A DNA stretch of 64,000 bases from Prosopocoilus inquinatus. Taxonomy: Eukaryota > Arthropoda > Insecta > Coleoptera > Lucanidae. The notes below the pieces were generated by a model. The model was not told the origin of the DNA. It ran no database searches and worked only from the letters and a program-made list of their open reading frames with translations. The stretch covers positions 69,130,212 to 69,194,211 of the forward strand of contig CM069870.1 in NCBI GenBank assembly GCA_036172665.1. Direction: 5' to 3'. The stretch's first letter is position 1; each line of letters starts with the position of its first letter. Of this stretch, positions 8,801 to 50,906 are shown piece after piece. The position numbers and the translations under genes are program-made.

Positions 8801-11800
8801 TTCGGCAAAGATCCCACAGGTGGCGCCATAAAAAAATTCTGACGATAAAATAAGTTAAACTAAAAAAAAAAAATTGATTACATCATTTAATAATTTTTAC
8901 ATGAACCAGCAAGAAATAGATCCAAAACATAAAGTAAATAATAAAAGGAAATAACAGTGTCGACATCTATTGAGAAAACGAATACAGAAGAGGGATTTGT
9001 ATGGCGCTGTTTTTTTATGATGTTTAACACAAGTAATCTGATTTACTAAAAAAATAAATAAACAATTTGACATACCTCCCTCTACAAGAAGTAAACGCAA
9101 AAGAATTCAGTTAACGGAAATTTTACAGATGGCATAATTAAAAAAAAATTACTAACATTACGAAAAATAATTAAATGCAGTTAATAAGCAGGAACTAAAC
9201 AAAAATATTAATTAAATAACAATAAATAAAAGTGTAAATTGTTAACATTTCTGCCACCTGTTGAGAGAATGATTACAGAAGAAGAATTTGACAGAGGTTC
9301 CACAGATGGCGGTATTATTTTTTTTAAGTTGTCATCTCTCGGAAATGAGCGCAAAAGAGGTCAGTTCGATAATAATTTCACAAATGGCATCACTAATAAA
9401 TAAAAAATATAAGTCAAGCAAAAAAAACAAAGGCCTCCCTGCATTGGAAATGAATATAAAAGAAATTGTCGTCTATCGGAAAAGAATGCAAAAGAGATTG
9501 GTTGGTTAATAATTTCACAGATGGCACCACTAATAAAAAAAATTGTGACGGCTGGCGACAAAATTTAAAAACGCAGTAGCCTTATGAACAACAAAAAATA
9601 ACTTAACTGTCATTGCAATTCTTCATATTTTGATTTGTTTATTAAAAAGTATTTCTCACATCTAATTGAGATTTAATATACAAATCACCACAAAATATAA
9701 GTTAAACAAAACGATGACAAGGGCCTCCCTCTGTTGGAAATGAATGCAACAGAAATTAGTTCACAAAAATTCCGTACCTCCTGACATTGTAACAAATATT
9801 GCAAGTTAAAAAACTGAACTTAATAGAATTATAACAAACAATAAAAAATCAATTTAATAACAAGAAATTAAAACCATAATCTGACATTTTTGCCGTCTAG
9901 TGAGAGAATGAACGCAACATGATAAAAATTTGATAGAGGTTCGGTAGGTGAAGCTGTCATTTAATGTTTATGTAATTAAAAAAGAAACAATTTGACTTGT
10001 CCGCCGTCTATCTGCTGGAAATTAATGCGAAGGAAACTGACTTACTTATTGTAACGATAAGTTCAACTTAAAAAAAAAGATCTGTCATTTGACATAAACG
10101 AAAGAAATTGCTTCGCCAAAAATCCCACAGATGGCTCCATAAAAAAAATCTGCTAACGTCAGAACAAATTCAATAAAAACAATAATTACAAAGTCATTTA
10201 ACATAAACAAAAGGAACTGGTTCGGGAGAAATCCCATAGATGTCAAAACGTCAAAACGTAAAGTAAAACACAAAAACAAAAGCAATTTGATTCCTACTTC
10301 CTGGAAAGGTTTTCTTTAATTATTACTAGATAAAATAGCGACATCTTACTATCGCTTTTTGACCTAACATTGCAGTAGGATAGACAAATTGAAGCGGGAT
10401 TTGCTCCTAATAAGTCCCCCATGCAAGGCGGCCATGCTTGCTGTCAAAGCATAATGAAAGTTTTTAGAAAAATTTTGTGCAAATCGTTTTTGATTGCAGT
10501 GGGAATGTCGAGCTACGCCTCTGCTGAAGAAGCCCCAAGCAGGGCTGAAACAGCTGTCTAGAGGCTGCTCGAGGTTTTCACTGCAATCAAAAACGATTTG
10601 CACAATTTTTTTTTTAATTATTACATTAGTGTATGACAATTTATTTATTGCAATCGTTAAAAAAAAAATAATGAACTGAACTTTTGACAATAAATTAAAG
10701 AGAGGAGTTTCAAAAAGTTCTGCAAATTCTTGTAAACTTAGGAGTTAAAAAAACCACTTAAATTGAATATTATAAAAGCAAGAACGAAAACAATTTATAA
10801 AAAAAAAAACAGAACGTCGCAAAAACACGGAAATAATAATCGAAAACGTTTTAAAAATAGACGACACATTATAAACACCGCTGCTTTTTTTACCGTTGAA
10901 TAAATATTTGGCATGTGTTGATATTTTGCAAGTGGCAGAACAAACAAAAATAAACCAACAAACTATACAGGGTGCTCTAATTACTTTTGCAGAAGAAAAA
11001 AAAAACATTTTAGGTATACGATACGATAAGGAATTAATGATAAGAAAATTATTAATTAACTTCCAGTAGCGTTCCACAGAGGGCGCAACTAAAAAAAAAT
11101 CAAGGACGTTACATTGGAAATAAGTTCCAACTACAAAATAAATTTGACATAATTTTAAAACACAAACAAGAAATAAATTTAAAAAAAAAAACAAATAAAC
11201 CGGGCTCCCACTTTATTTTCATTGAAACATTCCCTGACTTTTCCAGGTTTTCCCCGAACTTTTAATCAAGAAACTTACACTACAGACTGCATCTTTATCA
11301 ATTTTTACGTGTTTAAATAGTTTTTCCCCTGATTTCAGAACAGAAATAACAGATGCGCAAAAAGTAGTAATTAATTTATTTTTTATTATCACGTGTGGAG
11401 AAAACTGTTCCAATTACCTCTAAAAACTATAAGCAATTAATTTTAATAGCATGCTCGTTCGTTAAAAAAATAATTAAAAAATAAAAAAAATTCTCAATAT
11501 TGGCAATCCATTGAACGCATTCGCTTGTCTGGTTGCCTATAGCATTCAAGACGTGAGACATTTTTTTACAATTTACTAACATTATGCATTCCTTCTCTTT
11601 TTTTGATATTTAAGAAAATTTTCCATTTTTTTCTTCTAATTTTAGAAACCAAAAAGAGAAACAAACTTGCATTTTACAGAAGAAAAAAACGATTTTAGTT
11701 GACAGGATCAATAAAAAAATTATTAACTTCCAGTAGCATTCCACAGATGACGCCACTAAAGAAAATCACCGACGTTACAAGAAACAAAAAATGAATTTAA

Positions 11801-14440
11801 CATAATTTTAAAACACAAAAAAAAATAAATTAAGAAAAAACCAAGCAACCAGGGATACACTTTCACACTTTCTTTTCATTGAAACTGACTTCCCTGACTT
11901 TTCCAGGCCTTCCCCGGACTTTTAATCAAAAAAAAAACTTTTACTTTGGACTGGAATTATGCATCTTTTCCAATTTTTACATGTTTAAACATTTTTTCCC
12001 TTCTGATTTCAGAAATTACAGAAATGTTAGACGTTCAAAAATTAGTAATTAATTTCTTTTTTTATAACCACACGTATTGTGGAGAAAAATGTTCAATACC
12101 TAAAATTAAAAATTATAAAGCAATTAATTTTAATAACATGTTTGTTTAAAAATAAAATAAAATAGGTTTTCCAAAAAAACGAGAAGTCTTAGTGTAGGCA
12201 ATCCAATGAACGCATTCGCTTGTCTGGTTGCCTATAGCATTGAATACACTTAACAATTTTTTTTTGTTAAAAACGTGAGACGTTTTTTTACAATTTACTA
12301 ACATTACGCATTTCTTCGCTTTTTTTGATATTTAAGAAAATTTTTCATTTTTTTCTTCTATTTTAGAAAACAAAGAAAAAACAAATTTGCATTTTACAGA
12401 AGAACAAAACGATTTTAGTTGAGAGGATCAATAAGAAAATTATTAACTTCCAGTAGCATTCCACAGATGACGCCACCAAAGAAAATCACCGACGTTACAA
12501 GAAACAAAAAATGAATTTAACATAATTTTAAAACAAAAAAAAATAAATTAAGAAAAACTAAGCAAACAGGGATACACGTTCACACTTTCTTTTCATTGAA
12601 ACTAACTTCCCTGACTTTTCCACGTCTTCCCCGGACTTTTAATCAAAAAAAAACTTACACTTTGGACTGGAATTATGCATCTTTTCCAATTTTGACATGT
12701 TTAAACATTTTTCCCCCTCTGATTTCAAAAATTACAGAAATATTAGACGTTCAAAAATTAGTAATTCATTTATTTTTTTTTGCTTGTTTGTTTAAAAAAA
12801 AAATAAAATAGGTTTTCCCAAAAAAAAAAACAAGAAGTCTTAATGTAGGCAAACCAATGACGGCAACCGCTTGCATGGTTGCCTATAACATCCAAGACCC
12901 CGACAATTTTTTAACTAAAAAAATCACCGTGAATGACCGACGTTACAACATAAAAATGAATTTAAGATAAAGTTAAAACAAACAAGAAATATATTTTAAA
13001 AAAACAAACTGGGCTCCCACTTCGTTTTCATTTAAAGATTCCCTGACATTTTCAGGTTGTTGCTCATTAAAAAAAAAATAAAAATAAAGATTTTTCAAAA
13101 AACAAGAAGTCTTAACACAGGCAATCCCATGAACGCGGTCGCTTGTATGGTTGCCTATAACACTGAAGACTCCAATATTTTTTTTTGTTAAACACGTGAT
13201 AATTTTTTTTTACAATTCACTCACATTACGCGTTCTAATTTTAGAAGACAATTTTGTATTTTACAGAAGAACAAACCGATTTTAGTTAATTAAGAGGATC
13301 AATAATAAAATTATTAACATTTTGAATAAATTGGGCAAGTCGTTTTTGGTCTGCAGTGGGAATGTCGAGCTACGTTTCTGCTGAAGAAGCCCCAAGCAGG
13401 GCTGAAACAGCTGTCCAGAGGCTGCTCGAGGTTCTCACTGCAATCAAAAACGATTTGCACAAAATTTTTCTAATAAAATGATTATTCCACAAACGGCGCC
13501 AAAAAAAAAATAACCGACGTTACAAGAAATAAATTCAAATTATGTCAAATGAATTTGACGTAATTTTGAATCACAAGCAACACTCAATTTAGAACAAACA
13601 AAAAACAAACGGGGCAACCACTTTATTTTCATTGAAACATTCCCCGACTTTTCCAGGTTTTCCCCGGACTTTTGATCAAAAAATAGATTCTTCGAAAAAC
13701 AAGAAGTCTTAGTCTAAGCAATCCCACGAACGCAGCCGCTTATAGGGTTGCCTATAACATTGAAGACACCAATTTTTTTATTTTTTTAAACGTAATAAAC
13801 TTCTTCACAACTCACTTAGATTATTCAGTTCAGCTATATATATATATTTTTTTTTTGATAATTCAAACGATTTTCCATTTTTTTTAATTTCAGAAAACAA
13901 AAGGATTGATAACAATTTTTTTTAAATTAACTTCCAGGTGGAGAATGACTCTATAATGACGATCATCGAAATGTACAGGAACGACTTGAAAGTCTACGGC
14001 CACAAGTCGCTGCCCAGAGGCTACCGCTCCAGGTCGTTTCATGAAAGAATCGACTGTTCTTTGCTGCTGCTCTGTCGTCAGTGCCCCAAGCTAACAACTT
14101 TGGTAAGTCCCGGCGTTTTAGTGGTCGGTTTAATTTAAGCGTTGCTCACGCACAGGTCATAACCGAACGCATTTCAACCGCAACCGTGCTCCTCTTGGCA
14201 CACTCGGCAAGGAGAATGCGTTACCTCTACATACGCAGGAACGCAGTGATTAAACGATGTGATTGGCCACAGAGCCCCGAATGGTCTGACGAGTTCTACG
14301 ACTGGTTGAGAGCGAACAGCCAGTCTTACGAGTTCGTTGAGAGGGAGGTCTCACAGATTCTGGATTACAAATGGCACATGCTCTCCGACAAAGAGTTCAA
14401 ACAAGTAGAGATCCACTTACATTCTGATAAGCTCTACTGA
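5893..14440 (+). CDS. F-box only protein, FBXO33/39-like (5-6 exons)
   Basis: Putative substrate receptor of an SCF (Skp1-Cullin1) ubiquitin ligase. Exons: 5893-5932 (proposed), 6606-6850, 6915-7397, 7451-7720, 13938-14102 and 14156-14440, giving about 495 aa, open throughout, stop TGA at 14438. The F-box is in exon 2 (WSELPDLLLEKIFSYLTIRE ... LVCKSWYQAF, about residues 28-60). The rest reads as leucine-rich-like segments (KLLAALKRLMANLKLLRRLE; VLIISPQNLGNDTVELIG) as in FBXO33/FBXO39. Introns 2-5 have clean GT-AG sites, all phase 0. The first intron is inferred: the reading frame upstream of 6606 has no ATG, whereas ATG at 5893 (MNRGCWKVDDDDK) ends at a GT donor in phase 1 that matches the AG at 6604-6605. 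Intron 4 (7721-13937) is 6.2 kb of repeats including two sense hammerhead motifs. The gene converges with INTS5. The family is clear; the specific orthologue and the start are not. Confidence 0.8.
7667..7925 (+). repeat. triplicated exon 3' end plus splice donor
   Basis: The last ~50 bp of the F-box exon ending at 7720 plus about 35 bp of intron recur twice in tandem (about 7750-7838 and 7840-7922). Each copy carries 'ttaacagcgt.ctct.aattcg' and then 'gagtaattaaaaaaa.. ctgagcttttg'. Copy 3 keeps an intact GTGAGT-like donor; copy 2 reads GGGAGTAATT and has lost the GT. The copies are exonic sequence relocated into the intron. Confidence 0.8.
8303..8639. mobile_element. mariner-type MITE, copy 2
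   Basis: Starts ACGAGTGTTCAATTAAAAAA and ends ..TTTTTTATTGAACACTCGT. TA flanks at 8301-8302 and 8640-8641. It is 337 bp, homologous over its length to the copy at 3098-3433, and inserted in the large F-box intron. No ORF. Confidence 0.8.
8640..10320 (+). repeat. F-box intron: dispersed 'AGATGGCGCC' repeat array
   Basis: Successive degenerate units of about 150-250 bp contain 'atcggaaatgaatgcaaaag' and 'cacagatggcgccacta' modules separated by A-rich DNA. Core motif hits include about 8166, 8818, 9304, 9516 and 10131; an isolated one is at 8165 between the MITE and exon copies. The same modules recur in INTS5 introns and at 58.4-58.9 kb. No exon is seen. Confidence 0.6.
10328..10602 (+). mobile_element. 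hammerhead-bearing foldback repeat, copy A1
   Basis: The copy begins with the family's terminal cassette (AGCGACATCTTACTATCGCT, then 'gacctaacattgcagtagga', 'ccatgcaaggcggccatgc') and continues into the hairpin module bounded by GCAAATCGTTTTTGATTGCA and its inverse ending at about 10602. It lies in the F-box intron. There is no transposase or RT, so it is non-autonomous; class unresolved. Confidence 0.6.
10507..10574 (+). ncRNA. type-I hammerhead ribozyme motif, copy A1
   Basis: The conserved core is present in order: CTGAAGA (10524-10530; CUGANGA box), stem II AGCCC/GGGCT around loop CAAGCA (10531-10546), GAAA (10547-10550), then short self-complementary stem III ACAGCTGT and cleavage triplet GUC ending at 10558. 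Stem I is CCTCTG (10518-10523) with TAGAGG (10559-10564), extended by TCGAG/CTCGA beyond an internal loop. It is in the sense orientation in the large F-box intron. Activity is inferred from the fold only. Confidence 0.65.
11220..13860 (+). repeat. tandem ~430-720-bp repeat units with conserved hairpin
   Basis: Units in the F-box intron share 'ttccctgacttttccaggtt' (about 11228, 11889, 12607, 13042, 13641), 'ccagtagcattccacagatg', and a hairpin: AAGTCTTA.TGTAGGCAAYCC paired with GGTTGCCTATARCAT..AAGAC (about 11505, 12185, 12835, 13106, 13703). Unit spacing is irregular (about 435-720 bp), which suggests internal deletions. Two more hairpins lie at 17461-17592 in an INTS5 intron. No coding signal. 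Confidence 0.65.
13364..13431 (+). ncRNA. type-I hammerhead ribozyme motif, copy A2
   Basis: CTGAAGA at 13381-13387, stem II AGCCC/GGGCT, GAAA at 13404-13407, stem III ACAGCTGT, triplet GUC with C17 at 13415. Stem I TTTCTG/CAGAGG uses G-U wobbles and is extended by TCGAG/CTCGA and then by a long outer stem (CTGCAGTGGGAA with TTCTCACTGCAATC). It is in the sense orientation in the F-box intron, 0.5 kb before the next exon. Confidence 0.65.
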
Positions 14441-20600: not shown

Positions 20601-23600
20601 TTCGATTAGCAAAAAAAAAAACATTGATTGTTTCCACAATTTTTTTTACGATTTTGGCAACCATGCATGCAACTTGTTTTTCACAACAGTCATTTGACCT
20701 CGGCTCGACCCGATTTTCATTTTTTTTTTTTAGTCAGCAAAAAGATTTTTCAATTATTTTTCATGAACAGAAAAACGATTAATTCAGAATTTTTCATTTT
20801 ACTTTTTTGCTGAACGTCATTATTTTGAAGTGTCTACGAGACACTCAAGATTAGATGATTTCCATTATTTTTTTGCGATTTTCTTGGACGGCCGTGCGGT
20901 CTTTCACTTGTTCTTCACAACAATCGTCAGTCTTATAATTTTCAATTGTTTTTTTTTATCGTCAGCAAAGAGCAAGAAGATTGGATTCACTTGTTTAATG
21001 ATTTTTCAATAGTTTTTCATGATCGGTAAGACGATTAATTTAGAATTTTTCGTTTTTTTTGCTGAACGTCATTATGTTGAAGTATTAATGAGGCTCTCAA
21101 GATTTTGATGACTTTCATTATTTTTTGCGATTTTTCTTAGGCGACCATGCGATCTTTCACTTGTTTTTCATAACAATCGCTATTTGTTACGATTTTCAAT
21201 TGTTTTTTATAGTCAGTAAAGAGCAAGAATATTGGGTTCAGTTGTTTAATGATTTTTCAATTGTTTTGAATTTTTCATTTTCTTCTGCTAAACGTCATTA
21301 TGTTGAAATGTTAATGAGGCTTTCAAGATTTTGATGATTTTCATTCGTCGTTTTATTCATAATTTTTTTGGGCGGCCATGTGATATTTCACCTGTTTTTC
21401 ACAACAATCGCTCTTTCTTACGATTCTTACGATTTTCGATTGTTTTTTATATTATAAGATTCGGTTCACTTGTTTCATGATTTTTTAATTGTTTTCCATG
21501 ATCGATAATTCAGAATTTTTAATTTTTTTGCTGAACGCCATAATTTTGAAGGCTCTCAAGATTTTGATAATTCTCTTTAATTTTTACTATTTTTTTAGGC
21601 GGCCGTGCGATCTGTTACTTGATCTCATAACAGTTGCTCGTTCTTACGATTTTCAATTGTTTTTTATATTATAAGATTCGGTTCACTTGTTTCATGATTT
21701 TTTAATTGTTTTCCATGATCGATAATTCAGAATTTTTAATTTTTTTGCTGAACGCCATAATTTTGAAGGCTCTCAAGATTTTGATAATTCTCTTTAATTT
21801 TTACTATTTTTTTAGGCGGCCGTGCGATCTGTTACTTGATCTCATAACAGTTGCTCGTTCTTACGATTTTCAATTGTTTTTTTTTTTACAGTCAGCAAAC
21901 AGCCCTGCCGATTAGGTTCGTTTGTTTTAAGCAGCGTCATCGTAATTTTCAATTGTTTTTCACAATCAGCGAGATGATTTTCACTTTTTTTTTTATTAAA
22001 CGTCATAATTTTGTAGTGTTAATGAAGCTCCCGAAATTTCATGATTTTTATTACTATTTTTTTGCAATTCTTTTTTTTAAATTTCGGGTAGTCATGTGAT
22101 CTTTCGCTTGTTTCACAGCAGTTGCTCAATTGTTTTTTTTTATACAAACAGCAAACGGCAAGAAAATTGAGGTCATATGTTTTAAAGAGCGCCATCATGA
22201 TTTGATTCAATTGTTCATTTTTAATTGCGATTCGCTTTATGTTGATCCTCAAAAGTTGCAAGTTGTACACTCATGTCAACAAAAAATGCGTACAGGCGGT
22301 CAGACACTTTTGGGTACTATGTAGGTCATGAGATCAAATAATATGTAATTTTAATGACTTACAAACTGGGGTTGCGAGGTTGTATCTGATTTAAATAAAC
22401 TTGAAAAATAAATGTAAAACAAATGAATATGAAAATTCTGACGATTTTTTTAGACTGTTTGTTAATAAAAGGTTTTGTTTTACGAGCCGAAAGGCAAGAC
22501 AGAACTGAAAAAAAAATAAAAACCTAGAAAGAGAAGTTTTACAAGGGGTGGGAGACTTACCAATTTCTTGTTTTGCTTGAGCAGCAACTTGTCGGTTTGC
22601 TCGTGCGAGAGTGACACCTTGTGTTCGGCCCCGAATAAAACGTTGTGGCTCGAGAAGAGGGACCTCTCTATTAGTTCCCGCAGGGCCAGAATTCTGGCAA
22701 CGTTCGAGTGAATGCAGAGGCGGGTTAGAATTTCTACAGTCCTTTCGAAACCTTTCAGACGGATTGTTGTATCTGAAAACGAAATGATTTTGAATAATTA
22801 AAAAAATTTAATAGCATTTTCAATTGACTGTGCCATAACACCCTCATAGTATTTCTATCTTGTTTTAACTTCAACTTCATAATATGTTAACAAGGAACAG
22901 AGATACTCTCACAATGCTCTGCAGCAATGAATTAAATTGTTAAAATTATTCTAAAATTTATCTTGTAATTGAATTTATTTGTTGTAAGGTCGGTGATTTT
23001 TTTTAGTAGCGCCATCTGCGGAATTCTCGTTGAACCTATTCTTGCAGTAATTTCCATGCGATGGCGAACATGTCAAATTGCTTTCACTTTTTCTTAATTT
23101 TATCGTGTACGTTCAATAAATTATTTTTTATTTATTTGTTTCGATGACAACGGACTTAAAAAAATTCTTCTTTGAATTCTTCTGTGTACTCTTTCACTCA
23201 ACAGATGGCAGAGATCTCAAATTATATTTTAGTTTCTTTTTATGTACTTGTGTTTTTTTTCTTACATTTTTTTTCAATTGAACTTATTTCTTGTGACGAC
23301 ATTTTTATTTATCAGCGCCATCTGTGAGATTTTTGTCGAACCAATTTCTTTTGCAATAATATTCAATAGACGGCGGGCATGTCAAACAGTTTTTTTAACC
23401 TGCCCACGTGCTGCATTAATTCTGTCAATGCATGCCAGAGAATTTTCAAATTTATGTTTCAGTTTATTTTTATTTTATTATTTATGTTTTGATTTAATTC
23501 GTGTTTTTTTGTGTTCATCTGCGGATTTTTTCCCAAATCATATATTATACTGTTTTGACTTGTTTTTTTTTTTTAATTGCCTTTTAATCCTTTTCTTTTA

Positions 23601-26600
23601 TTTGATTTAAGTAACGTCGGCAATTATTTTGCAGTGCCATCTGTAGAATTTTTTCAGAACCAATTTCCTTTGCAATAGTTACCAATGGATTGCAGATTTG
23701 TTAAATAGTTTTTTTTTTAATTATGTCTTGTTTAAGTTCTATAACTTAAAAAAATAAAAACCCCATTAACCGAACCTGTCAAATTATATTTCAAACTCAA
23801 ACACATTTAATTGTTTCTTTACAGAACACAGTATCTATATTTATTTCTTTTATGTTTTGATTTATTTCTTGTTTGTTTACGTTGAAATGATTTCTTTTAC
23901 AGTCATTTGTTTTTCAATAGACGGCGACATTTAAAATTGTTGCTTTCTTAAATGTTATTCTTTATATTTTGATTTGTTTCTGCTTTATGTTAAATGGCTT
24001 TTTGGTATATTTTTTTTTCTGATTAAATTATTTGTTTTTACGTCGACTTTTTAGTAGTAGCGCCAACTGTGGGATTTTTGTCGAACCGATTTCTTTCGTT
24101 CACGTTAATTTCAAATTTCAATATATTTTTTTTTATTTAACCTTTTAGCAATTTTTTCACAGCGCCACTTGTAGAATTGTCTTTGGCAATTATTTCCGAT
24201 AGATGGCAGACATCGAGATATTTTTGAAAACATCATTGTAAAATGGTTAAGGCGAGTTAAATGGATGTAAAGAAGAAAAAGGGAGAAGAGTAGCAAGCAA
24301 TACAAAGAAGTCCGAATTTTCGAGACACTTACGAACCTTTCTCCACGCAACACATGAAAAAGTAATTCACAATTCCGTGGGTGTAGTTCAGAATGACTTG
24401 CAGCGGGGGACTGTAGGAGCGTTCCCCGTTGTAAGTCGGAATGTTCAGCAGCTCCAAGATCTCAGCGATCACATGCACGATCCTCCCGGACATTTTATTC
24501 TTGCTGAAGATCGCGGTGAACGAAACCAAGTTGTGCTGCAGGGCCCTCGTTACGATCTGCGATTTCAAAACCTGGGTCTTCCCCGATTTCTCCCACCTGA
24601 AACGATTCTTTTTTTTTTGAAACAATCAAACGGTGACCTGGTGGAGGGTCATACTTAAGCAAAGTCAATAAATTCAGCCACATTTGAAACTCGTCCTCGC
24701 TGCTCTCGTGCATTTGCTGGAGGTGATCGCTCAAGATCTGTTCGAGGACGGCCGAGAAGTACCCCCCTTTATTCGTGTAGGGTTGAAGCGTCTTGATGAT
24801 TAATTCGTCGGTTAGAATCCGGACCAAGAGGGCGAGGTGACCGTCGGTCTTTGCGCTTTGAAATAAAAACTTGGCAGACTTGATCAACATGGAGGGGTTA
24901 TCATGGCCTAGAAATCGGGGAAAACAATTGAATTACGTGGGGGCGCAACGTAACAAGCGTTTACTTATGAAAATTATAATCCGAGCTGCGGTTTGCGATT
25001 TGATTGTTTCGGGGCTCAAGAGCATCTCGTGTATGTCGCCGATCTCGTAGATCAACGAGTTTAATATGTGGATGGGGGTAGAGGGGTGGGACGAACGGTG
25101 CCTGACTGCAAAGTCGATTTCTTGCAGGACGAACTCTGCAATTATTAAACAAATGTGGGGGCGCTTTCGATTGGGGTAAACTACGTGCATGCGCTGAGTG
25201 TTTCTTCATCTCGTTTTAATTTCGTGGAATAAAATGAGATGAAGATACACCGAGTGCGCTTAGTGCACCCCAATCAATCAAAGTGTAATGTGGGAAGAAG
25301 GCCTACCTAGAACATCCCTTGCGTTGACCTGGATGGTGTTCTTCATTGCCTCATCTGTCGTGGGGGCTTGCTCCAGGAAAATGCAGTCCAACAGCAAATT
25401 GATGATCTGCGAGCCCCCCTTTTCGCACTTCAAAATCAAATTCACTATCAAATCCTTGAAGACAGAAAAAAAATTGCATTACGCCTCACAACCACTTTAC
25501 TTTTACGACGGTAGTCACCTCGAGGGCCTCGGACGACCCGAAATACTTGCACCATTCGTCCGTGAAATTATAAAGCTGCAGTATTATGTCGATGGGAACT
25601 AAAAACCAGGAATGAAATTAATTTCTTCCTGTCTGCAAATTTTTTTTTGTAGACAGACTTGTTTGCTGAAGTTGACTGCAAATCGTCGACAGCAACGTCG
25701 ACGATAAGAAGGAGAGTTGGAGGAGAAACGGGACCGTCGCTTTCTTCTGGGATTTCACGGCTTCGCCTTCTTGGAATGTCGTCGGTGTTAAACTCCACTG
25801 CGAACACAACAAGTTCAAGTCGCAGACAAAATTTAATAATAATAATAAGTAAAAAGTTTTTTTTAATCTTAAACCGGACGAAATTGTGATTGGAAATACA
25901 CTCAACGTTTCGCTACAGATTTATAGCTTCATCAGGAGCGAATAAATCTATAGCCAAACGTTGAGTGTATTTCCAATCATAATTCTGCCCGGTTTAAGAT
26001 CAAAAAAACTTGTAACTTGTTACATATCTCATCTGAGAAGAAACAACTTCATTTAATAATAATAATCAGACTTGGGATATTTTGAGTGTTGCCATGGTTA
26101 CATATCTTACGTTGAATAAATCTAAGAGAGCGTTCCGGATGTCTTCGCAGTGGCTGCCGGCGAGATGGCCCAGAATCCCCACCACCGATTTCAGCTTCGG
26201 GGAATCACAGCCCTGCTCGTACGACTTGTTCTGGCAGAAGTCCTTCAATCCGCAGGATAAAACCCTGGTGATCACGGTGTTGGGGAAACAACTGCCGACG
26301 TGCGCGACGACCCAATCGAAATTCGGCGAGTGCTTCACCGACGTGTCTGGCGGCAACAAAACAAACGACAATTTAAATTGAAAACATTCTACCACCGCAA
26401 TAATTGTTCAGGAGGCTGACCTAAGAGGGCGCTGATGCAAGCTTCGGTGTCCGAGTGCATCAAGCAGGATAGGCACTGCGTGGTGATGTCGATTAAAGTC
26501 CTGGTCGCCCTGCAGTTCATCCATAACTGCAACGTTTCGTTCAGACCTGCACGTATACGAATGCTTAAGATCCTATTGGGTCTAATTTCTTTAAAAAATC

Positions 26601-29600: not shown

Positions 29601-31785
29601 TATTTAAGAGACTATTCCTAGCATTCAAAAGAAAGACACGGATCTCCTTAGTTTTAATAAAATATGAGTTCGGTGCCAACCTAAGCAAATTAATGTGTAT
29701 GCAACCTCTTGTAAAAAAAAATACGATAAATTAGTTGCAGTTTGCGTTTTTTTTTTTTTTAATTTATTCTACTGCGCCCCCCTTTAAAGTTTTATTCTAT
29801 GGGGGTATGGGGGCGCGCCCCACAATTTGGGAAACGCTAAGCTAAGAGCTTAAACTGAAAAACACAATTAACAATAAATAATAGTTAAACACAAATTTTT
29901 GAAATTTTTCTGTATTAATTGTAAAAATAAATGAAAGGGAAATAAAAATACAAACCTAACATTACACTTTGATGCTCATTGCAGCAATCAGGAGCGCTGT
30001 TGTCAACTGCATCAAATTTTGAAGTATGTCAAGTACAGTTGCGGCCCTTGAAAACTGGTACACTGAGAATTGACATCAGTGTCCAAAATTCTTAATTTTG
30101 TAATGTGTAAATCAAACCTTAATCTATCATTTTAATGTCAGTGTCATATTTGACAAATCCATGGTAGAATTTAGAGAGATCTGAGTGACGTTTACACCAC
30201 CAAAACATTTGACAAAGTGTATCAGTTTTCAAAGGCCGCAACTGTACGTGCCTTTTTTTTAGAGAGAAAATCGAATTTTCACGTTTAAAAACGTATTACC
30301 TCGAGATGACGTGCAATAATAAACAGAAAAAAATTGAAATAAATTATTATCGAATAAAGCGTTTTGGTTAGATTTTTTTAAATTCTGTCATCGGATGTAA
30401 CGCGATGGTTACTTGTTTACGGATTATTGTTTTTAATTTTGAAATTCGTTCTCGAACATTTCCGTCCATTTTTGAATTTTTTCTTACGATGGTTATTTGT
30501 TTCTATTTTCAAATATTTCTGTAACTTCACAATTTTTTTGACGCTGTTACCGTTATTGTTTGAAAGAAGACTGCCTCGCAGTACTTTTGAGTTAATCATT
30601 TGCTTTTCTTCTCTTTTCATTTGTTTACCTTGGAATTAATTTATTCTTTTTGCTTTCATATTGTGGTTTTCTTTCGCGAAAAATTACAGTCGTCATTTGT
30701 TTCTTTTTTTCTGCTTTCTTCAGGACTTTTCATTTCGTAAAAGTACCTATTATGACAGTGATTAGCTTTTGTTCGTTGGTTTTCGTCAAATTCAAATTAT
30801 TATTAATAATTTGTCTTGAATGTTTGCTATTATTATTTGTTTTAAATTTTAAATCTGCAATTCGTTTTAAGTTCTTCCCTTTCAATCGTCATTTGTTTTT
30901 CTTTTCTCTTGTCAGGAATTTTTGTTTCTTTTTCCATTTATAGTGAGTTTTTCGTTTGTCAAAGGCGTTTATCCTTTTCCTGTTAAATTGCTTACATTTT
31001 TTCAGAAATCGACTAGTTAAAATTTCTTTGGAAATTTTCCTTGCCATGAAATGAAAACTCTATATTTATTTATTTGAATATTTTTCATATTACCTTCAAA
31101 TTGTATTTTTTTATTTAATAAGTAATTTATCTTCTATCAGAAATTGATAAATATGACATCAATTTCTCATACATTATTTATTTCTAATTTCAACATCGAT
31201 GTGAACTTTCGATGTTAACATCGATGTCCCATCCCTAGTTTGCACTGGAACTCTCGAGCTGATGAAGCCCCAAATAGGGCTGAAACAGCTGTACAGAGGG
31301 TTCTCGAGGGATTCATTGCAATCAAAAACGATTTGCAATAATTTTTTATTTAAAAAATTACCTGTAGAGATGTGTGCACGTCCTGCATACTTTGAAGATA
31401 TCTCCCCCAGCAGCTCCAAGGACCACGTGCTGATGATTGGGGCCCAAGCTTCGGCGTTGCCCGCGACGAAGCTGCACAGAATCGTGTGTATCTCGGTAAG
31501 GGTCGGCTCGTCGTATTCTGGAACCGGCGGTAGGGTTCCCGTAGCTATCTCGGTTTCAATGGCGACCACGTAATTTTCGGCGGCCGCATCAAAAACAGAA
31601 CGGAAATACTCAAGCACGGCGTCTCTGGTAGCCGGTAGGGTCTTCAACAGAGACAGAGCGGTTTTCGTCAGATCCAGGGGGTTACATTTTACGCTCTTCG
31701 TCGCCCCCCCGATGAAAACTCGCATTTCGTTCAAAAGATCTTGCTGGTTGGTGTTTCGAAACACGGTCGCTTGAGAAGACACCAT
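14681..31785 (-). CDS. INTS5: Integrator complex subunit 5 (13 exons)
   Basis: A scaffold subunit of Integrator that sits with INTS8 in the phosphatase (PP2A) module and acts in the nucleus on snRNA 3'-end processing and promoter-proximal termination. Exons (transcript order): 31785-31362, 26546-26421, 26346-26111, 25797-25659, 25598-25519, 25454-25307, 25135-24965, 24907-24655, 24596-24337, 22772-22561, 19116-18829, 18529-18218, 14905-14681. All junctions are GT-AG with matching phases; 957 aa, stop TAA. Diagnostic stretches shared with the family: [97 protein letters not shown]. The donor of exon 9 (AAAG|GTTCGT) was preferred over a nearby GTAAGT because only it keeps frame. Length is close to human INTS5 (about 1019 aa). 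Introns 1, 9, 10 and 12 (1.6-4.8 kb) are filled with repeats. Confidence 0.93.
15480..17180. repeat. INTS5 intron 12: dispersed 'AGATGGCGCC' repeat array
   Basis: About ten degenerate units of the family also seen at 8.6-10.3 kb: 'aacgaaagaaattggttcga', then 'aaaatcccacagatggcgcc', then A-rich spacer. Core hits include about 15549, 15768, 16036, 16376 and 16486. The part from 14906 to 15480 is T-rich sequence with no feature seen. Confidence 0.55.
17461..17592. repeat. two tandem GGCAAC hairpins
   Basis: CAAGAAGTTTCAGTATAGGC pairs with its near-exact inverse (GCCTATACTAAAACTTCTTG) across a loop of about 25 nt. A second, weaker hairpin (GCAGGCAACC...GGTTGCCTGTAC) follows immediately. They belong to the hairpin family of the F-box intron units and are preceded at 17217-17260 by the same 'tttttccaggttttcccc' module. 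Confidence 0.6.
18545..18822. repeat. minisatellite filling INTS5 intron 11
   Basis: Eight to ten imperfect copies of a 23-33 bp unit of the type 'atacagtgtgccccaaatca' occupy almost the whole 299-bp intron (18530-18828). The copies nearest exon 11 are the most alike. Only the splice sites are spared. Confidence 0.7.
19260..20510. repeat. INTS5 intron 10 (left): 'AGATGGCGCT/C' repeat array
   Basis: Repeat units of about 110-200 bp with 'acagatggcgctgctaataa' and 'aaaagctaacgtaaaaacaa' (core hits at about 19300, 19410, 19866, 20104, 20435). Adjacent units here are more alike than elsewhere, so this part has probably expanded in tandem. Confidence 0.6.
20560..22290. repeat. ~217-270-bp satellite in INTS5 intron 10, 7 copies
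   Basis: The landmark 'ggcggccgtgcgatct' or a variant occurs near 20656, 20886, 21140, 21371, 21598, 21815 and 22086. Each unit also has 'cgattttcaattgttttt', 'gctgaacgtcattat' and 'ctctcaagattttgat'. Two neighbouring units (about 21442-21658 and 21659-21875) are identical over about 217 bp, which indicates recent unequal exchange. Confidence 0.75.
22960..24240 (-). repeat. INTS5 intron 9: inverted 'GGCGCCATCTGT' repeat array
   Basis: The same dispersed family as at 8.6-10.3 kb but in reverse orientation: 'agcgccatctg.g.aatt' followed by 'gaaccaatttctttt' (about 23008, 23316, 23635, 24060, 24160), separated by T-rich spacer and 'gacggcgggcatgtcaaa' modules. Confidence 0.55.
25173..25275. mobile_element. 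~100-bp foldback in INTS5 intron 6
   Basis: The two halves are near inverse copies (GATTGGGGT..CTGAGTGTTTCTTCATCTCG.TTTA against TAAAATGAGATGAAG...ACCCCAATC), with arms of about 45 bp and almost no spacer. It lies within the 171-bp intron 6. Confidence 0.6.
25868..26000 (-). ncRNA. hammerhead-like core in a 59-bp-arm inverted repeat
   Basis: On the minus strand the centre reads CTGATGA (25936-25930), stem II GCTA/TAGC around an 8-nt loop, GAAA (25911-25908), then CGTT. CGCTC upstream of the core can pair with GAGTG after CGTT, giving a short stem I. One extra A sits between CTGATGA and stem II, so the fit is imperfect. Arms of about 59 bp (ATCTTAAACCGG...) enclose it. It lies in INTS5 intron 3 in the sense orientation. 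This could be a degenerate or non-canonical ribozyme, or simply a foldback element centre. Confidence 0.45.
26735..26900. repeat. dispersed repeat, copy 1
   Basis: 'cagctgaattgat..atgtcatatacggccagtcc' followed by 'agcgcgtgtcaagtggcgcc' and 'tgtcatcttgg' matches 27918-28070 closely. The DNA just before it (26690-26720) holds a fragment of the AGCGACATCCTACGATCGCT cassette of the hammerhead family. Confidence 0.55.
27868..28160. repeat. dispersed repeat, copy 2, starting with a palindrome
   Basis: 27868-27957 is a palindrome with arms of about 38 bp (TTGGACTGACCGTATTTGAC... against its inverse). It is followed by the unit also present at 26735-26900. Near 28083-28140 a second small inverted pair (CCTACTAGATTTCA / TGAAATCCAGTAGG) occurs. 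INTS5 intron 1. Confidence 0.55.
28235..28356 (-). mobile_element. partial hAT MITE (TTACCGGTAA family)
   Basis: Reverse-orientation fragment of the family at 59598-60074 and 62909-63421: 'agatgtcgccacttgagctg', clustered TTACCGGTAA palindromes, and the terminus ..TTTAACAACACT. Only one end is present. Confidence 0.65.
28740..28945. repeat. ~18-20-bp minisatellite 'ttctaactgtctaggatag'
   Basis: About ten imperfect units, plus a longer direct repeat of 'tttctaacttctaatgtcct'. Related words ('ctattctagaaaattagaaa') recur at 61885-61930, where they again adjoin the 'agcggattctccgctagttc' repeat, so this is one composite repeat present at two loci in opposite orientation. Confidence 0.6.
28946..29237 (-). 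repeat. composite repeat shared with 61670-61930
   Basis: 'tccgccagcagctagatg', 'agctagaactagcggg' and 'ccgctaagttggcaac' are the inverse of the sequence at 61672-61775. It joins at 29170 to the inverted copy of the 2.3-3.1 kb repeat. INTS5 intron 1. Confidence 0.5.
29238..29850. mobile_element. hAT-like element remnant
   Basis: The left end AACGTTTCTCAAACTTTTAG and the right end ..CACAATTTGGGAAACGCTAA form imperfect inverted termini. Both are followed inward by C-rich 'gcgacccccttt' and 'gcgccccccttt' blocks, as in many hAT MITEs. It interrupts the inverted repeat copy 29170-31060. An exact 8-bp target duplication could not be assigned. Confidence 0.5.
30036..30244. mobile_element. 209-bp TA-flanked MITE
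   Basis: CAGTTGCGGCCCTTGAAAAC at the left is matched by GTTTTCAAAGGCCGCAACTG at the right, giving arms of about 31 bp. TA flanks both ends (30034-30035 and 30245-30246). No ORF. INTS5 intron 1. Confidence 0.75.
30405..31060. repeat. T/C-skewed repeat, inverted copy of 2290-2960
   Basis: Words such as 'aacatttccgtccatttttg' and 'acagtcgtcatttgtttctt' are the reverse complement of 2.7-2.9 kb. Phe/Leu-rich ORFs on the + strand reflect composition, not genes. Confidence 0.55.
31180..31240. mobile_element. hAT terminus fragment
   Basis: 'caacatcgatgtgaactttc', then 'aacatcgatgtcccatccct' followed by A, resembles the CATCGATG-rich ends of hAT elements that finish CCCATCCCTA. Only one end is visible; it abuts hammerhead copy A3. 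Confidence 0.45.
31251..31307 (+). ncRNA. hammerhead ribozyme motif, copy A3 (stem I deleted)
   Basis: Canonical core CTGATGA (31259-31265), stem II AGCCC/GGGCT with loop CAAATA, GAAA (31282-31285), ACAGCTGT and triplet GUA ending at 31293. The inner 11 nt of stem I (CTACG..CTCTG in other copies) are missing, so CTCGAG directly abuts the core and can pair with CTCGAG at 31302-31307 only across a bulge. It is antisense to INTS5, 55 bp inside intron 1. Confidence 0.55.
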
Positions 31786-32280: not shown

Positions 32281-35200
32281 CTTTGAAGGGAATTCCGGTG
32301 AACTTTTCAAATTTCATAGTTATGTCCGCCCTTATTTTCATGTCGTGTTTGGTTACCTCGTCCACTATTTTCGGGAAGTACAGTCGCTCGTCGGTTCTGT
32401 CGAGTTCGACCAAGGGATCCACAAACCATCCATAACTATAATAAAGGCATTGAAATGTAAGTATCTTACGAAGTGGAAAGGCAACGCTCATAACGTAAAA
32501 CTTGCATTGCTGGCGCCGTAGTCAGGAGAGACAAGATCGTAGGGATCTCCATCTTTTTCTGTTTCGTGCGTTCTTATGGCGATTGCTTTAAAACAGTACT
32601 TATTGAGCATCATGTGTGTCAGACAAGGATGGAAACACCTATGACGCGCGGTTAGCGAGGCTACATGATTTAAGCAAGGCGCCAGGGTTGCCAGATTGGG
32701 CGAAATTCCCCCATTTGGGCTACATTTTAAACACACTTGGCGTTTAAAAATCTTATTCGACGCCTGATTTGGGCTACTTGTTACTACTTGTCTTCACATA
32801 ACACAAAAAATATATACGGTGTGATCAATAATGACTGTCTAGGGGCCTAATTCCCGAATCGACAAAATTGCCAAAATGAGCTAAATGAGTTTGATTCCTC
32901 GATTCGAGAATAAGGCCCCATGTCGCTACTTTTTATTTAATTTATAGCTCTTATATGACAAGAATACTTTGAGCGTCGTTTTCTTTTGTTTCTTTTTATT
33001 AATTTCATATTATTTCCTCTTTCTTTCTTGTTTTTGTTTCGTTTTATTAAACAATTGTTGTTTTGTACGTTTTACTCACGGTTCGTTTGTTTTATTTTGT
33101 CCTTTTGTTTCTTTAGTTTCATTGGGTGTTCGGCCGAAGAATCGTCGTTTTCTCATTTAATTATTTTTTTTCCATCCGTTCTTTTGTTTTTCATGTTTTT
33201 CGTATTTTTCTTCTTTTTAACCGAATTGATTTCCACATGTTATTGTCTCGTTTTTACAGCTCTCTTTTGTTTCCTGCGAGTGTGTTTTAACTTTATACGA
33301 AAACTATCGTCGATTTCCTTTTTTTTGTTCATCGTTGTACTCTAGTACCACGCGATCAACGGAATTTATAATGAGAGCAGGTTGTGATATTTTCCAAAAA
33401 GTTGGTAACACAAGCTTACAGTTTGAAATTAAAAATTTTATAACTGTCAAAATTGTGCCATTTATTTTTTAAAGGAATGGTAATAAACGGATCTGTCTTG
33501 TGGAACCTCCGCAATATTCTAAAAAAGCGTTTAAACCAGCATCCATACAAAATAAAATAAGAAAATAAAGATTTTATAAGGCACGAGCATAACCTCAAAT
33601 ACGACAACTGTCAACGTATTATTTATTTCTCATTGTATCCAACCAAGCAGCATAAAATAGCACCAATCAGAGCATCCTCTAATTATGAATTCCATTCCAT
33701 TCCCGGTACTTTTTTTTAAATTCATTTTATGCCGTTGTATTTCTTTTTTGTTTTTGTTTTTATCAAATTGATTTTTTGATTTTTCAGATTTTGATGAATG
33801 ACGGTCTTTCTACAGTAATCTTTTGTTTTCTATCAGATTTTTTTTCTAAATTTTTCATTCGGTTTTTGTTCACCTTAGTCGTCAATATTCTTTTGTTTCT
33901 TTTTACTGTTCTTTACGCTTTCGTACTATATGTATTTTCCTCTTGACTCATAAAACTGATTTTTCGCATTTCTTGACGCTTATTCGTAGTTCATCGTTTT
34001 TCATTTGTTTTGTGTCTCTTTTGCGATTTTCTTTTCTTTTGCGCACTGCATTTCGTTTCTCTTTTGCTTGTTTTGTATCGTATTAACGACTCTTTTACAG
34101 TTTGCTTTAATTTTCTACGAATTTTTCGTTTCCTCGGAAAAATTGTTGTTGTTCGTTCAGCTTGGTGTTGTCGATCATCTTTTGTTTTTGTTTTTGTTTA
34201 CTTCACACCTTGCATTTTGTTGCTGTTGTTTTCGAATACCTCGCTGTATAACTTATAACTGCTCCACTGGGAGGCCGGTACAAGCTCTGGTAATAGATTT
34301 CTCTTTTTTTCTGATTTTGTTTGTACAGATTTCGTTTGTTTCTTTTTTCATTTATTTCATTTACTTGGTATCCCAAGTCGCCGAATTTTTGTAATTTTGT
34401 CTTAAGCCGCCCTCCATTTAAATTCATTTCATCTGAAATCAAATTGATTTGATTTTGAACTAAACTGATTTTAAAGCAAACAGAAAGTTTCTTAAAGCAA
34501 TAATGGTTGATACTGATTGTAAATAAAAAAAAAACAGCTTGATCACTAGAGGGTGAGAGAGGAGGAACTCGGTTACTTCTTTATCACCGATCGCCAACTG
34601 AACAACTGCAAATAAAATCTAATCAGTGATTTTTAAGTGAATATGAATTGATTCGCATTCAAATATGTTGTAAATGGAGGACGGCTTTTGACTTTAGAAA
34701 AAATTTGGCGCTTTTTGTTTACATTTTGTTAACAAGTTGGCGACATTTGCCTGCAAAAAATCTGGCAACTCTGCTAGGCGCTGTCGTTCCATTCGTAGAT
34801 ATTTTCGTAGATATTCGTACATATTTTTCCTTAGTTCCGTTACACGTCATTGACAATAATGACGTAGAATTTAAGCATCGTTGCCAGGGTGTGACGTCAC
34901 TGCTGAACATACGATTTGTTACGGAATGTCGGAACAGTCTTGGCATTTGCGTTAATAAGTAGAATTATCGTACAGATGTGTATGTATTCTTATTTAAATA
35001 TGAAAGAAATTCAAGGCTTCGTAAAATTTTCGTGCTCGGAATAAGAAGTGCCATATATATTGAACACCTTTTTTAAGAAAAATTTTGTGCAAATCGTTTT
35101 TGATTGCAGCGAGAACCTCGAGCAGCCTCTGGACAGTTGTTTCAGCCCTGCTTGGGGCTTCTTCAGCAGAGACGTAGCTCGACATTCCCGCTGCAAACAA

Positions 35201-35958
35201 AAACGACTTGCCCAATTTATTCGCAAATGCGATTTAAGAGTGATGAACAGATAAAATAGCGACATCTTACTATCGCTTTTTGACCTGACATTGCAGTAGG
35301 GTAGACAAATCCCGCTTCAATTTGTCTACTCTACTGCAATGTCAGGTCAAAAAGCGATAGTAAGATGTCGCTATTTTATCTGTTCATCTTTTTTTTTTAA
35401 GGTTAGGTATGGTAAACTTCACAACATCTTCACAATTAAAATTTGTCAACAACGCAAATTACTGCCAACAAACTTTTAAAACAGACTGATTGTTGTTTTC
35501 ACGACGTGTAGCGGATTACGGAACTAAGGAAAAAAATAAGGAATGTAGACTTATTTTTAGCACCATTATTAGGTACCCAACAGAAATGAACTAACGTATT
35601 TTTACATTAAGATCTTTGGTGCCCACTTATAAGCACATGCAAAGAAAAATATACGAACCATTGGTTTTCCGTAACGGGCCACTTGTATTTTTCTTTCGGG
35701 CCCATGTCCCTGTACATCTTGATCGTCCTGACCAATTCCTCATCTGCAGTCGATAAGTCGAGGGCCTCGTGTCTGGCATAAAACTTTCGCGTTAGGGGAG
35801 GACCTTAAAGGAATTAATCTGGTTAGAGGAGAAGACGGGGCGTTTTCGTTCTGATTTTTTTTTTTACATTTGTAACACGGCCAGTAGTTTTCGTTGACGC
35901 GGAAGAACTTGTACTCTTTCGCGTAGAATTCTTTGATAATTTTCTCGTTTCGTTGCAT
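32276..35958 (-). CDS. CFAP144: cilia- and flagella-associated protein 144 (FAM183)
   Basis: A small axonemal protein; the vertebrate orthologue is a microtubule inner protein of ciliary doublets. Exons: 35958-35868, 35803-35659, 32435-32276, in phases 1 and 2, giving 131 aa (human about 134). Diagnostic C-terminal pattern: MGPKEKYKWPVTENQ, then YGWFVDPLVELDRTDERLYF, matching the family's GP..KY....TE.Q..GW...PL....D.RL signature. The start was set at the first ATG in frame; upstream in-frame sequence has only a TTG. Intron 2 is 3.2 kb and holds T-rich repeats plus a sense hammerhead motif. Same strand as INTS5, 490 bp upstream. In insects, expression would be expected in sperm and chordotonal neurons (inference). 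Confidence 0.88.
32960..34400. repeat. T-rich skewed array in CFAP144 intron 2
   Basis: Strong pyrimidine bias on + with recurrent 'cttttgttt' and 'ttttcattt' words; landmarks 'gttcggccgaagaatcg' and 'gttcagcttggtgttgtcg' recur (inverse) at 46.2 and 44.5 kb. It is part of the same low-complexity family as 43.8-46.4 and 48-51 kb. ORFs here encode only Phe/Ser/Leu strings. Confidence 0.5.
35080..35390 (-). mobile_element. hammerhead family, copy A4 with giant palindrome
   Basis: The hairpin module (35085-35215) is followed by 35243-35389, a near-perfect palindrome. Its ~68-bp arms (GATGAACAGATAAAATAGCG...) are each the family terminal cassette, joined head-to-head across about 10 bp. It lies in intron 2 of CFAP144, in the sense orientation for the ribozyme. 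Confidence 0.7.
35116..35183 (-). ncRNA. type-I hammerhead ribozyme motif, copy A4
   Basis: On the minus strand: CTGAAGA (35166-35160), stem II AGCCC/GGGCT, GAAA (35043 offset equivalent 35143-35140), ACAACTGT, triplet GUC with C17 at 35132. Stem I TCTCTG/CAGAGG plus TCGAG/CTCGA. Stem III has one change (ACAAC) compared with other copies. It is sense to the CFAP144 pre-mRNA. Confidence 0.62.
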
Positions 35959-39795: not shown

Positions 39796-40055
39796 GACCG
39801 AGCTTCATAATCGAACTAAAAATACGCTTTCAAATATTATTATTTCAAACATTAACATTCAAATATGCAACATATATCACATAGACATAAATATTTTTTC
39901 ACTTGTAGTTTCATCCTTCACTCACAGTGTTTCACCCAAATATGGAGAAGTATGCACAGACACATCCTTATTACTATTTTTACACGTTGATACGCAGCAA
40001 TTGAAAACCATTTTTAATATGTAAAGTAAGTAAATTTCTGAAAATGTATCTAGAA

Positions 40056-40372
40056 AGATTTTGTGCAAATCGTTTTTGATTGCAGTGACAACCTCGAGCA
40101 GCCTCTGTACAGCTGTTTCAGCCCTGCTTGGGGCTTCTTCAGCAGAGACGTACCTCGACATTCCCACTGCAAACAAAAACGACTTGTCCAATTTATTCGC
40201 AATTGCGATGTAAGAGTGCACAAAAATTTTCTAAAAACTTTCATTATGCTTTGACAGCAAGCATGGCCACCTTGCATGGGGGACTTATTAGGAGCAAATC
40301 CCGCTTCAGTTTGTCTATCCTACTGCAATGTCAGGTCAAAAAGCGATAGTAAGATGTCGCTATTTTATCTGA
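40056..40372 (-). mobile_element. hammerhead family, copy A5 (most complete)
   Basis: The order is the hairpin module, then 'tttcattatgctttgacagc', 'atgcaaggtggccatgc' (inverse), 'gaagcgggatttgctcc' (inverse) and the AGCGACATCTTACTATCGCT cassette ending near 40370. It is the inverse arrangement of copy A1, so it defines a unit of about 320 bp. Confidence 0.65.
40092..40159 (-). ncRNA. type-I hammerhead ribozyme motif, copy A5
   Basis: CTGAAGA (40142-40136), stem II AGCCC/GGGCT, GAAA, ACAGCTGT, cleavage triplet GUA. Stem I TCTCTG/CAGAGG, extended by CGAGGT/CCTCGAG-type pairing and then by the long outer stem. Intergenic. Confidence 0.62.
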
Positions 40373-42002: not shown

Positions 42003-43130
42003 ATGGAATTCGTCATCGGTGGCATGGCAGCCGTGTTTGCTGGCTTTTTCACTAACCCCCTAGAAGTAATAAAAACCCGCATGCAACTCCAGGGCGAGCT
42101 TCAGGCGAAGGGGAAGTACGCGGTGCACTATCGTAACATAGCCCAGGCCGCATACCAAATAGCCAGACACGACGGGGTTTTGGCCTTGCAAAAGGGGCTT
42201 GTACCGGCCTTGTGGGTTCAACTCATAATGAACGGGGCACGCTTTGGTTTGTGTTATTTTCTTTTTTTCCTTCCTCACGCATCACATCATTTTATTTAGT
42301 ACTCGTTCGCTCTTTCAAGTCTGATGTTTCTTTTAGGTTTTTATGATTTTGCGTACAGTCGTGGTTACGGCAGCGACACAGTCGGAAATAAAGTCTTATA
42401 CAAAGGCGTTGTCATCAGCGGATTCGGGGGAGTCATCGGCCATTACCTTTCCAATCCGTTTTACATGATCAAAACTCACTTGCAAGCGGAGGCAGCGAAG
42501 GCGATAGCCGTAGGCCACCAGCACCACCACGAAGGCACCCGCAAGGCCCTCCAGAAAATTTACAGGAAGCGCGGTGTAAGTTTGAAGCTTTCTGCTGCTC
42601 GATTTAAAAAAAAAAAAAAAAATGCTTCCAGTTCACCGGCCTATTCAGAGCGGGGGTGGCTGTGATACCACGTGCTTTCGTGGCCTCGAGTTCGCAGCTC
42701 ATGTCTTTCATTTACTGCAAGGAGTGGTTGAGCACGGCGGAGTATTTCCAGCGACATCCGATTGTAACTTCTTTCGTTTCGAGTATGATTGGCGGAGTGG
42801 CCATCAGCGTAATGACCACACCTTTCGACTTGGTTTTAACTCGATTATACAATCAAGGTAGTTACATATCGAAAAAAAGAAATGCAACAACAAGTTGTAG
42901 CGAGCATTTGATGTTTAGCTTTAGATGAAAAGGGCAGGGGCGTCCATTACAGAGGCTACGTGGATTGTGTCGTGAAAATTTACAAGACGGAAGGAATTTC
43001 TGCCTTTTACAAGGGAGTCGGTCCGATGTACTTTCGCCTGGGGCCTCACTCTGTGCTCTGCCTGATGTTCTGGGATTATTTCAGGGAGTTGTACGCGAAA
43101 TTCACGGCCGGGCAAAAAAAAGTGTTATGA
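42003..43130 (+). CDS. mitochondrial solute carrier, SLC25A35-like (gene 1)
   Basis: Inner-mitochondrial-membrane carrier; substrate of this subfamily not established. Exons: 42003-42246, 42337-42575, 42632-42857, 42925-43130, giving 304 aa, stop TGA at 43128. Three repeats of about 100 residues: the first signature is intact ([13 protein letters not shown]); the second lacks the acidic residue ([11 protein letters not shown]); the third lacks the basic one ([13 protein letters not shown]). These are features also seen in gene 2. Family landmarks: [51 protein letters not shown]. The acceptor at 42631 follows an A-run rather than a good pyrimidine tract. AATAAA at 43390. It could be translated from exon 1b or exon 1a. 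It is paralogous to 54534-55589; Drosophila likewise has a small cluster of such carriers. Confidence 0.88.
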
Positions 43131-43389: not shown

Positions 43390-43395
43390 AATAAA
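43390..43395 (+). terminator. polyadenylation signal, carrier gene 1
   Basis: Canonical AATAAA 260 bp after the stop codon. Confidence 0.6.
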
Positions 43396-44560: not shown

Positions 44561-44799
44561 GAATCAAAAAATCAAAGCAAACCGTTATAAAGTTAATATT
44601 AATAACACGATTGAAAAAAAAAACGAAATATAGTACGCAAAACAAAAGAAAAACGATGAACTTCAAACAAGCGTTAATAAAATGCGAAAAATCAATTCTA
44701 TAAAAAAGGTAAAAGAACAAAAAACCTATACTACGAAAGCATAAAATCAGAAGAAAAAAAACCGAAGAAGATTGACGGATTAAGATGAACAAAAACAAA

Positions 44800-50420: not shown

Positions 50421-50906
50421 ATCAGCGACATCTTACGATCGCTTTTTGACCTAACAAATTTTTTTTTAAACGTTCACTTTACTTTTTAGAAAAATTTTTT
50501 TTTGCAAATCGTTTTTGATTGCAGTGAGAACCTCGAGCAGCCTCTGGACAGCTGTTTCAGCCCTGCTTGGGGCTTCTTCAGCAGAAACGTAGCTCGACAT
50601 TCCCACTGCAGACCAAAAACGACTTGCCCAATTTATTCGCAAATGCGATGTAAGAGTGATGAACATATAAAATAGCGACATCTTACTATCGCTTTTTGAC
50701 CTAACATTGCAGTAGGATAGACAAATTGAAGCGGGATTTGCTCCTAATGAGTCCCCCATGCAAGTTCTTTCATTATGCTTTGACAGCAAGCATGGCCGCC
50801 TTGCATGGGGGACTCATTAGGAGCAAATCCCGCTTCAATTTGTCTATCCTACTGCAATGTTAGGTCAAAAAGCGATAGTAAGATGTCGCTATTTTATATG
50901 TTCACT
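50418..50906 (-). mobile_element. hammerhead family, copy A6 with 105-bp-arm palindrome
   Basis: A cassette fragment (50424-50457) is followed by the hairpin module (50497-50645), then a palindrome at about 50654-50905. Its ~105-bp arms run from the ATAAAATAGCGACATC end to 'gagtcccccatgcaag', with about 34 bp of spacer ('ttctttcattatgctttgac...'). It is two copies of the unit fused head-to-head. Confidence 0.7.
50531..50598 (-). ncRNA. type-I hammerhead ribozyme motif, copy A6
   Basis: CTGAAGA (50581-50575), stem II AGCCC/GGGCT, GAAA, ACAGCTGT, cleavage triplet GUC. Stem I TTTCTG/CAGAGG with wobble, TCGAG/CTCGA extension, and outer stem CTGCAGTGGGAA against TTCTCACTGCAATC. Intergenic. Confidence 0.63.

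Follow-up and report, generated by a model that had tools for sequence, protein, structure and literature searches.

Metazoan non-LTR retrozymes are, in the available part of PMC7229834, tandemly repeated units of ~170-400 nt that each carry one type-I hammerhead ribozyme, have a low GC content, are flanked by target duplications of >4 bp, number thousands of copies and correspond to strongly self-paired RNA. The enzyme that mobilises animal retrozymes has been left open, with Penelope-like elements (PLEs) regarded as strong or likely candidates (PMC7229834 and PMC7761336, in the parts available), and minimal hammerheads of PLEs have already been described (cited in the available part of PMC7761336). 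The purified Penelope protein of an anole cuts both target strands and extends them, with internal RNA starts at two sites, one at each boundary of the 'tail' (PMC11167929); rotifer Penelope copies carry inverted pLTRs, an optional one-sided tail and duplications of 8-10 bp (PMC3846280, available part).

The 64,000-nucleotide stretch of Prosopocoilus inquinatus DNA analysed here (the window) contains a 312-nt element that shares all of the retrozyme features listed above, its GC content being 43%. Unlike the retrozymes described in the available part of PMC7229834, the element has mostly head-to-head insertions with two fixed ends among those resolved, and it is known from DNA alone. The original prediction had recognised six type-I hammerhead layouts in the window, and we found them at all six places, with the CUGANGA box, stem II (AGCCC/GGGCU), GAAA and the U before the cleavage base intact in 6/6 copies, and with GUC in four copies and GUA in two, as had been claimed. 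Its suggestion of a retroelement context for hammerheads with such a short stem III is borne out, as the motifs belong to the 312-bp retrozyme; the larger insertions in which they are embedded, the 312-bp tandem unit, the head-to-head arrangement and the connection with Penelope had been missed. It had not recognised the repeat as a described ribozyme family; the kind is already described, as metazoan non-LTR retrozymes (PMC7229834, available part). The element is thus a retrozyme of a known kind that is very common in this beetle. What is new is the insertion rule that ties it to Penelope-type integration: no description of a two-end rule for retrozymes was found among the open-licence literature matches listed, and these matches included no paper on a beetle retrozyme (one query returned mostly beetle catalogues). 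Our main reading, to which we assign a probability of roughly 0.8, is that a non-autonomous metazoan retrozyme would be mobilised here by a Penelope-type enzyme priming from both nicked target strands. The features in the window are as follows.

10330..10612, no strand: head-to-head retrozyme insertion, ends at unit 132 and 306, 12-bp target duplication
10507..10574, plus strand: type-I hammerhead, core 10524-10558, predicted cleavage after 10558 (GUC)
13324..13473, plus strand: one-sided retrozyme piece, unit 161-310
13364..13431, plus strand: type-I hammerhead, core 13381-13415, GUC
31258..31346, plus strand: old one-sided piece, unit 217-306, 87% identical
31251..31307, plus strand: hammerhead-like motif, core intact, no stem I beside the GUA, probably inactive
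35072..35388, no strand: head-to-head insertion, ends at unit 312 and 141, 9-bp shared flank
35116..35183, minus strand: type-I hammerhead, core 35132-35166, GUC, stem III ACAACUGU
40051..40371, no strand: head-to-head insertion, ends at unit 309 and 135, 13-bp duplication
40092..40159, minus strand: type-I hammerhead, core 40108-40142, GUA
50484..50904, no strand: head-to-head insertion, ends at unit 312 and 139, 12-bp duplication (locus L001)
50531..50598, minus strand: type-I hammerhead, core 50547-50581, GUC, Hammerhead_1 23.8 bits

Judged by an invariant core and three stems with the opening at stem I, the core is complete in 6/6 copies and all stems are present in 5/6. Two parts of the predicted layout need narrowing. 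The self-complementary stem III is palindromic in most copies, and that of the copy at 35116 is not self-complementary because its sequence is ACAACUGU. The predicted re-pairing of stem I is present at its site in five of the six copies and is missing beside the GUA of the copy at 31251, which is therefore probably inactive; this copy passes only in another register, CUCGAG/CUCGAG, with the cleavage base in GGUU. A strict descriptor (core, stem II of at least 4 bp, stem III of at least 2 bp, stem I of 5 bp) matched exactly the six places in the window, as against three matches in 300 order-1 Markov shuffles, and a looser pattern gave 12 matches where 2.4 were expected; as the six copies are one family, they count as one event, not six, in any estimate of chance. 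In the proposed Rfam check, no site in the window reached the gathering score of Hammerhead_1 or gave a row at gathering scores, and at relaxed thresholds, of the two copies scored singly (50531 and 10507), that at 50531 matched Hammerhead_1 with 23.8 bits (cut-off 34; E 6e-4 for 161 nt), while HH9, the sole hammerhead row for that at 10507, stayed at chance level (16 bits, E 0.43).

Across the 650-Mb host genome (173 contigs), the core pattern CTGANGA-N16-GAAACAGCTGT has 18,255 exact matches (9,174 + 9,081), whereas the reversed control has none; a 34-mer allowing up to three mismatches has 20,138, and the core pattern was absent from the viral contigs searched. A DNA search with one copy returned at least 40 full-length matches at 98-100% identity and three partial ones (40 of 747 candidates scored). 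At several loci, units with one hammerhead each (GC 0.433) are repeated in tandem every 312-315 bp, and up to seven full units stand within a single arm. In the numbering used here, position 312 is the end of ...TTTTTCTAAAA and the predicted cleavage falls between 252 and 253. The unit is too small to hold an RT/GIY-YIG frame, and because of this the retrozyme is not itself a Penelope-like element; the mapped insertions show no LTR-like layout.

Loci from the one-copy DNA search and the copies in the window were mapped on this unit. Of the 45 resolved insertions, 44 consist of two head-to-head arms that represent the same RNA strand, with one outer end at site A (unit 301-312) and the other at site B (unit 132-141), both of which lie in predicted single-stranded stretches just 3' of a stem. 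The first set comprises 36 insertions with both ends resolved, 35 of which have one A and one B end; the exception, L010, has two B ends, and its duplication is not above background. Where several rows represent one locus, they were counted once (L030 with L029, L040 with L009, L043 with L017, L013 with L042, and window 50484 with L001), one of the 35 was traced across the two overlapping loci L003 and L041, and 27 unmapped bases were bridged in L036. As the loci of this set were found by unit 153-312, their B ends were unselected. Ten further loci, selected solely by unit 1-140, form a second set; they yielded nine more resolved insertions, and 9/9 obey the A/B rule; L071 and L073 are cut by the locus edge. 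Two of the nine come from L076, where one insertion is taken to lie within the target duplication of the other, given that a separate duplication flanks each; counted as a single insertion, L076 would be a second exception and the tally 42/44. Among 100 exact 34-mer places listed, hammerhead neighbours within 1.5 kb were in -/+ order in 18 cases, in +/- order in none and in tandem in five.

Such palindromic layouts, seen in many insertions, and a long inverted repeat (72-nt arms, 78%) with the hammerhead at its tip would also be expected of a MITE or foldback DNA transposon whose arms mimic a hammerhead by chance. We consider this highly improbable, since the outer ends are different unit positions and not inverted copies of each other, the inverted junction point varies between insertions, and the arms contain tandem multiples of the 312-bp unit; with no terminal inverted repeats at the ends, a MITE was rejected.

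The flanks of the first-set insertions share at least 9 bases in 31/35 cases and exactly 12 in 16, as against 23 of 1050 mismatched flank pairs; the insertion traced across L003 and L041 has a 13-base duplication. Of the nine second-set insertions, five have duplications of 12-15, one of 8 and one of 5, and the L076 pair has 7 and 13. The targets show a weak symmetric preference, AAC|about 12|GTT, around the duplication (27 insertions; eight of the 35 were omitted for repeats or a missing duplication).

The same genome holds an abundant PLE of 2604 bp, with tandem and inverted copies (two loci), whose frame of 788 aa has RVT_1 and GIY-YIG domains; the named relatives of its protein are mostly insect proteins. 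A genome search for GIY-YIG gave many rows in close -/+ pairs (150 of 2232 candidates scored), and 25 PLE loci were mapped, of which 16 were clean, four unmatched and five unclean (L044, with ends at 2603 and 2575, L047, L050, L051 and L052). In all 16 clean two-ended insertions, one outer end falls at 2599-2604 and the opposite one at 2562-2568, so that one end carries a tail of ~40 bp and the other is tailless. Selection accounts for part of their head-to-head layout, since 13 of the 16 had been chosen for lying in close -/+ pairs and another two for lying in long ones; the one-tail rule is unaffected by it. Their duplications are 11-17 bp, with 11/16 at 12-14 (null 2/480). The PLE has a minimal hammerhead with stem III AUACGUAU, the first pair of stem II being unformed, which lies ~47 nt before the tailless end (counted by hand) and gave no hammerhead row in Rfam. 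A second Penelope-style hammerhead, with the same stem III AUACGUAU and other stems, occurs in the flanking DNA of L049, L010 and L027 and perhaps belongs to another Penelope family. On the minus strand of L055, at 6814 of the reverse strand, a hammerhead-like motif combines the palindrome ACACGUGU with a stem II that pairs poorly.

Insertion in the Penelope manner, head to head with a tail at one end and a target duplication, is thus common to 44/45 retrozyme and 16/16 PLE insertions. As in the PLEs of PMC11167929 and of the available part of PMC3846280, the retrozyme arms are inverted with a tail at one end, duplications are of similar size, starts are internal and the hammerhead lies near the RT start. 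Unlike in PLEs, the retrozyme 'tail' (A to B) is 140 nt rather than 30-40, and a long helix I together with a regular stem II sets its hammerhead apart. Compared with the resident PLE, the distance from A to B is 140 as against ~40, the commonest duplication length is 12 as against 13, and the target bases differ somewhat. The ends of the two elements have no significant sequence in common; a motif found in both, TCGAGG..TTCTCACT, was discarded, its score being reached by 280/500 and 271/500 shuffles.

Inverted arms with target duplications are also described for L1 twin priming (in the part of the literature available), and LINE-type machinery could therefore have moved the retrozyme in an L1-like manner with no Penelope-type enzyme. 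Two fixed internal starts, one per arm and without poly-A, are instead the pattern of the resident PLE, and they also fit the published Penelope tail (PMC11167929; PMC3846280, available part); we thus regard movement by LINE-type machinery as quite unlikely.

For the Penelope-type reading, we propose a scheme that builds on what the mapped DNA demonstrates, namely the unit and its tandem repetition, the pair of fixed ends, the target duplications and the matching anatomy of the resident PLE. Tandem transcripts of the 312-bp unit would fold into a rod, with a helix I of ~43 pairs ending in the type-I hammerhead; by analogy with described retrozymes, the hammerhead would trim multimers to unit length and a host ligase would circularise the units. 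A Penelope-like RT/GIY-YIG protein would bind the retrozyme RNA and presumably nick both target strands ~12 bp apart, and each nicked strand would prime at a different fixed site of the RNA, either A, ~60 nt 3' of the cleavage site, or B, ~200 nt 3' of it. Reverse transcription might circle the template several times, and the two cDNAs would then join head to head at a variable point, leaving the ~12-bp duplication.

Variants common to both arms bear on whether a single template is used. In L003, a variant absent from all other examined loci is present in 8/8 units of both arms; L015, L036 and window 35072 have private variants in both arms, and a rare loop-2 variant (202 genomic copies) is in both arms of six insertions (by eye, among 100 listed places). 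Both arms thus often stem from RNA of one source. Many variants are nevertheless confined to one arm, and L002, L005 and L026 are mixed at unit 156, so that some insertions have no single clean template; L020, L023, L024 and L032 differ at unit 156 near the junction, a region of uncertain alignment. Uniform tandem arms are most simply explained by a circular template, and a tandem transcript in its place is also compatible with them.

The role of the hammerhead itself is a separate matter. The predicted circular fold of the unit has -112 kcal/mol, as against -71.6 +/- 9.9 in 60 shuffles, and contains a helix I of ~43 pairs that runs into the hammerhead; in it, a GCUG:CAGC pairing replaces the catalytic arrangement, as it does in three of the four hammerhead sequences that were folded individually. 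In the four sequences, the monomer needs 2.5-8.8 kcal/mol more than its minimum to adopt the catalytic fold, so that a dimer or a protein may be needed. Action as a dimer is plausible on these models, and the tiny stem III with its palindromic tip is dimer-suited, like that of amphibian satellite hammerheads (PMC7229834, available part), to which the retrozyme is unrelated in sequence and from which it differs in its helix I of ~43 pairs.

The same energy gap would suit a vestigial or uninvolved hammerhead, with uncut tandem transcripts as the template and the insertion story otherwise unchanged. It is also the case that hammerhead mutants of the anole element insert normally in vitro and that its ribozyme requires protein (PMC11167929), and in a small sample chosen independently of the ribozyme, 1/27 units has a core change (C3 to U), near the rate elsewhere. 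On the other side, core sites were changed in 0/1181 cases as against 128/29,317 for other sites (p 0.01) in loci picked by similarity and partly chosen for ribozyme identity. This count omits the copy at 10330, pieces shorter than 60 nt, pieces more than 8% divergent, unit 293-303 and sites 143 and 156. Selection on the hammerhead core is thus suggested by the similarity-picked loci, with no sign of it in the small sample. Among the eight one-sided pieces (the second piece of L010, L011, L027, L031, L037, L038, and window 13324 and 31258), the tandem retrozyme at L027 (1501-2187) has its 5' end exactly at the base after the predicted cleavage, without a clear duplication; this hints at self-cleavage, and a single such case in eight may be chance. 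Taken together, we find a vestigial or uninvolved hammerhead rather doubtful.

Retrozyme and PLE of one genome have an unusual insertion signature in common, and the two predicted start sites make the link between retrozyme and Penelope testable in vitro. That each insertion pairs one A end with one B end is also relevant to the integration of Penelope elements. For anole Penelope, no difference in start site between the strands was seen (PMC11167929), whereas here there is one of each per insertion. We put forward, at even odds, that twin priming is obligate and asymmetric: one RNA, probably circular, would be used twice per integration, once by an A strand and once by a B strand, the one-sided Penelope tail would be the footprint of this process, and a 312-nt ribozyme RNA would exploit the rule in trans, needing hardly anything besides its hammerhead and the two start sites.

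Several other features were observed in the window. Frames for the C- and N-terminal domains of Integrator subunit 5 lie at 24495-24932 and 31174-31794 on the minus strand; the hammerhead-like copy at 31251 is just past the N-terminal match, on the opposite strand, and is probably within an intron. An F-box protein (6509-7243) and mitochondrial carrier fragments (42300-42665 and 54486-55034) are on the plus strand, and an acireductone dioxygenase (55905-56465) is on the minus strand. The best match listed for the dioxygenase is an unnamed 312-aa protein (52% identity), and the following eight are beetle proteins at 72-78% identity, which makes a beetle the likely host. At 21424-21882, a tandem repeat of 217 bp is present in 2.1 copies that are 99% identical; it is apparently unrelated to the retrozyme.
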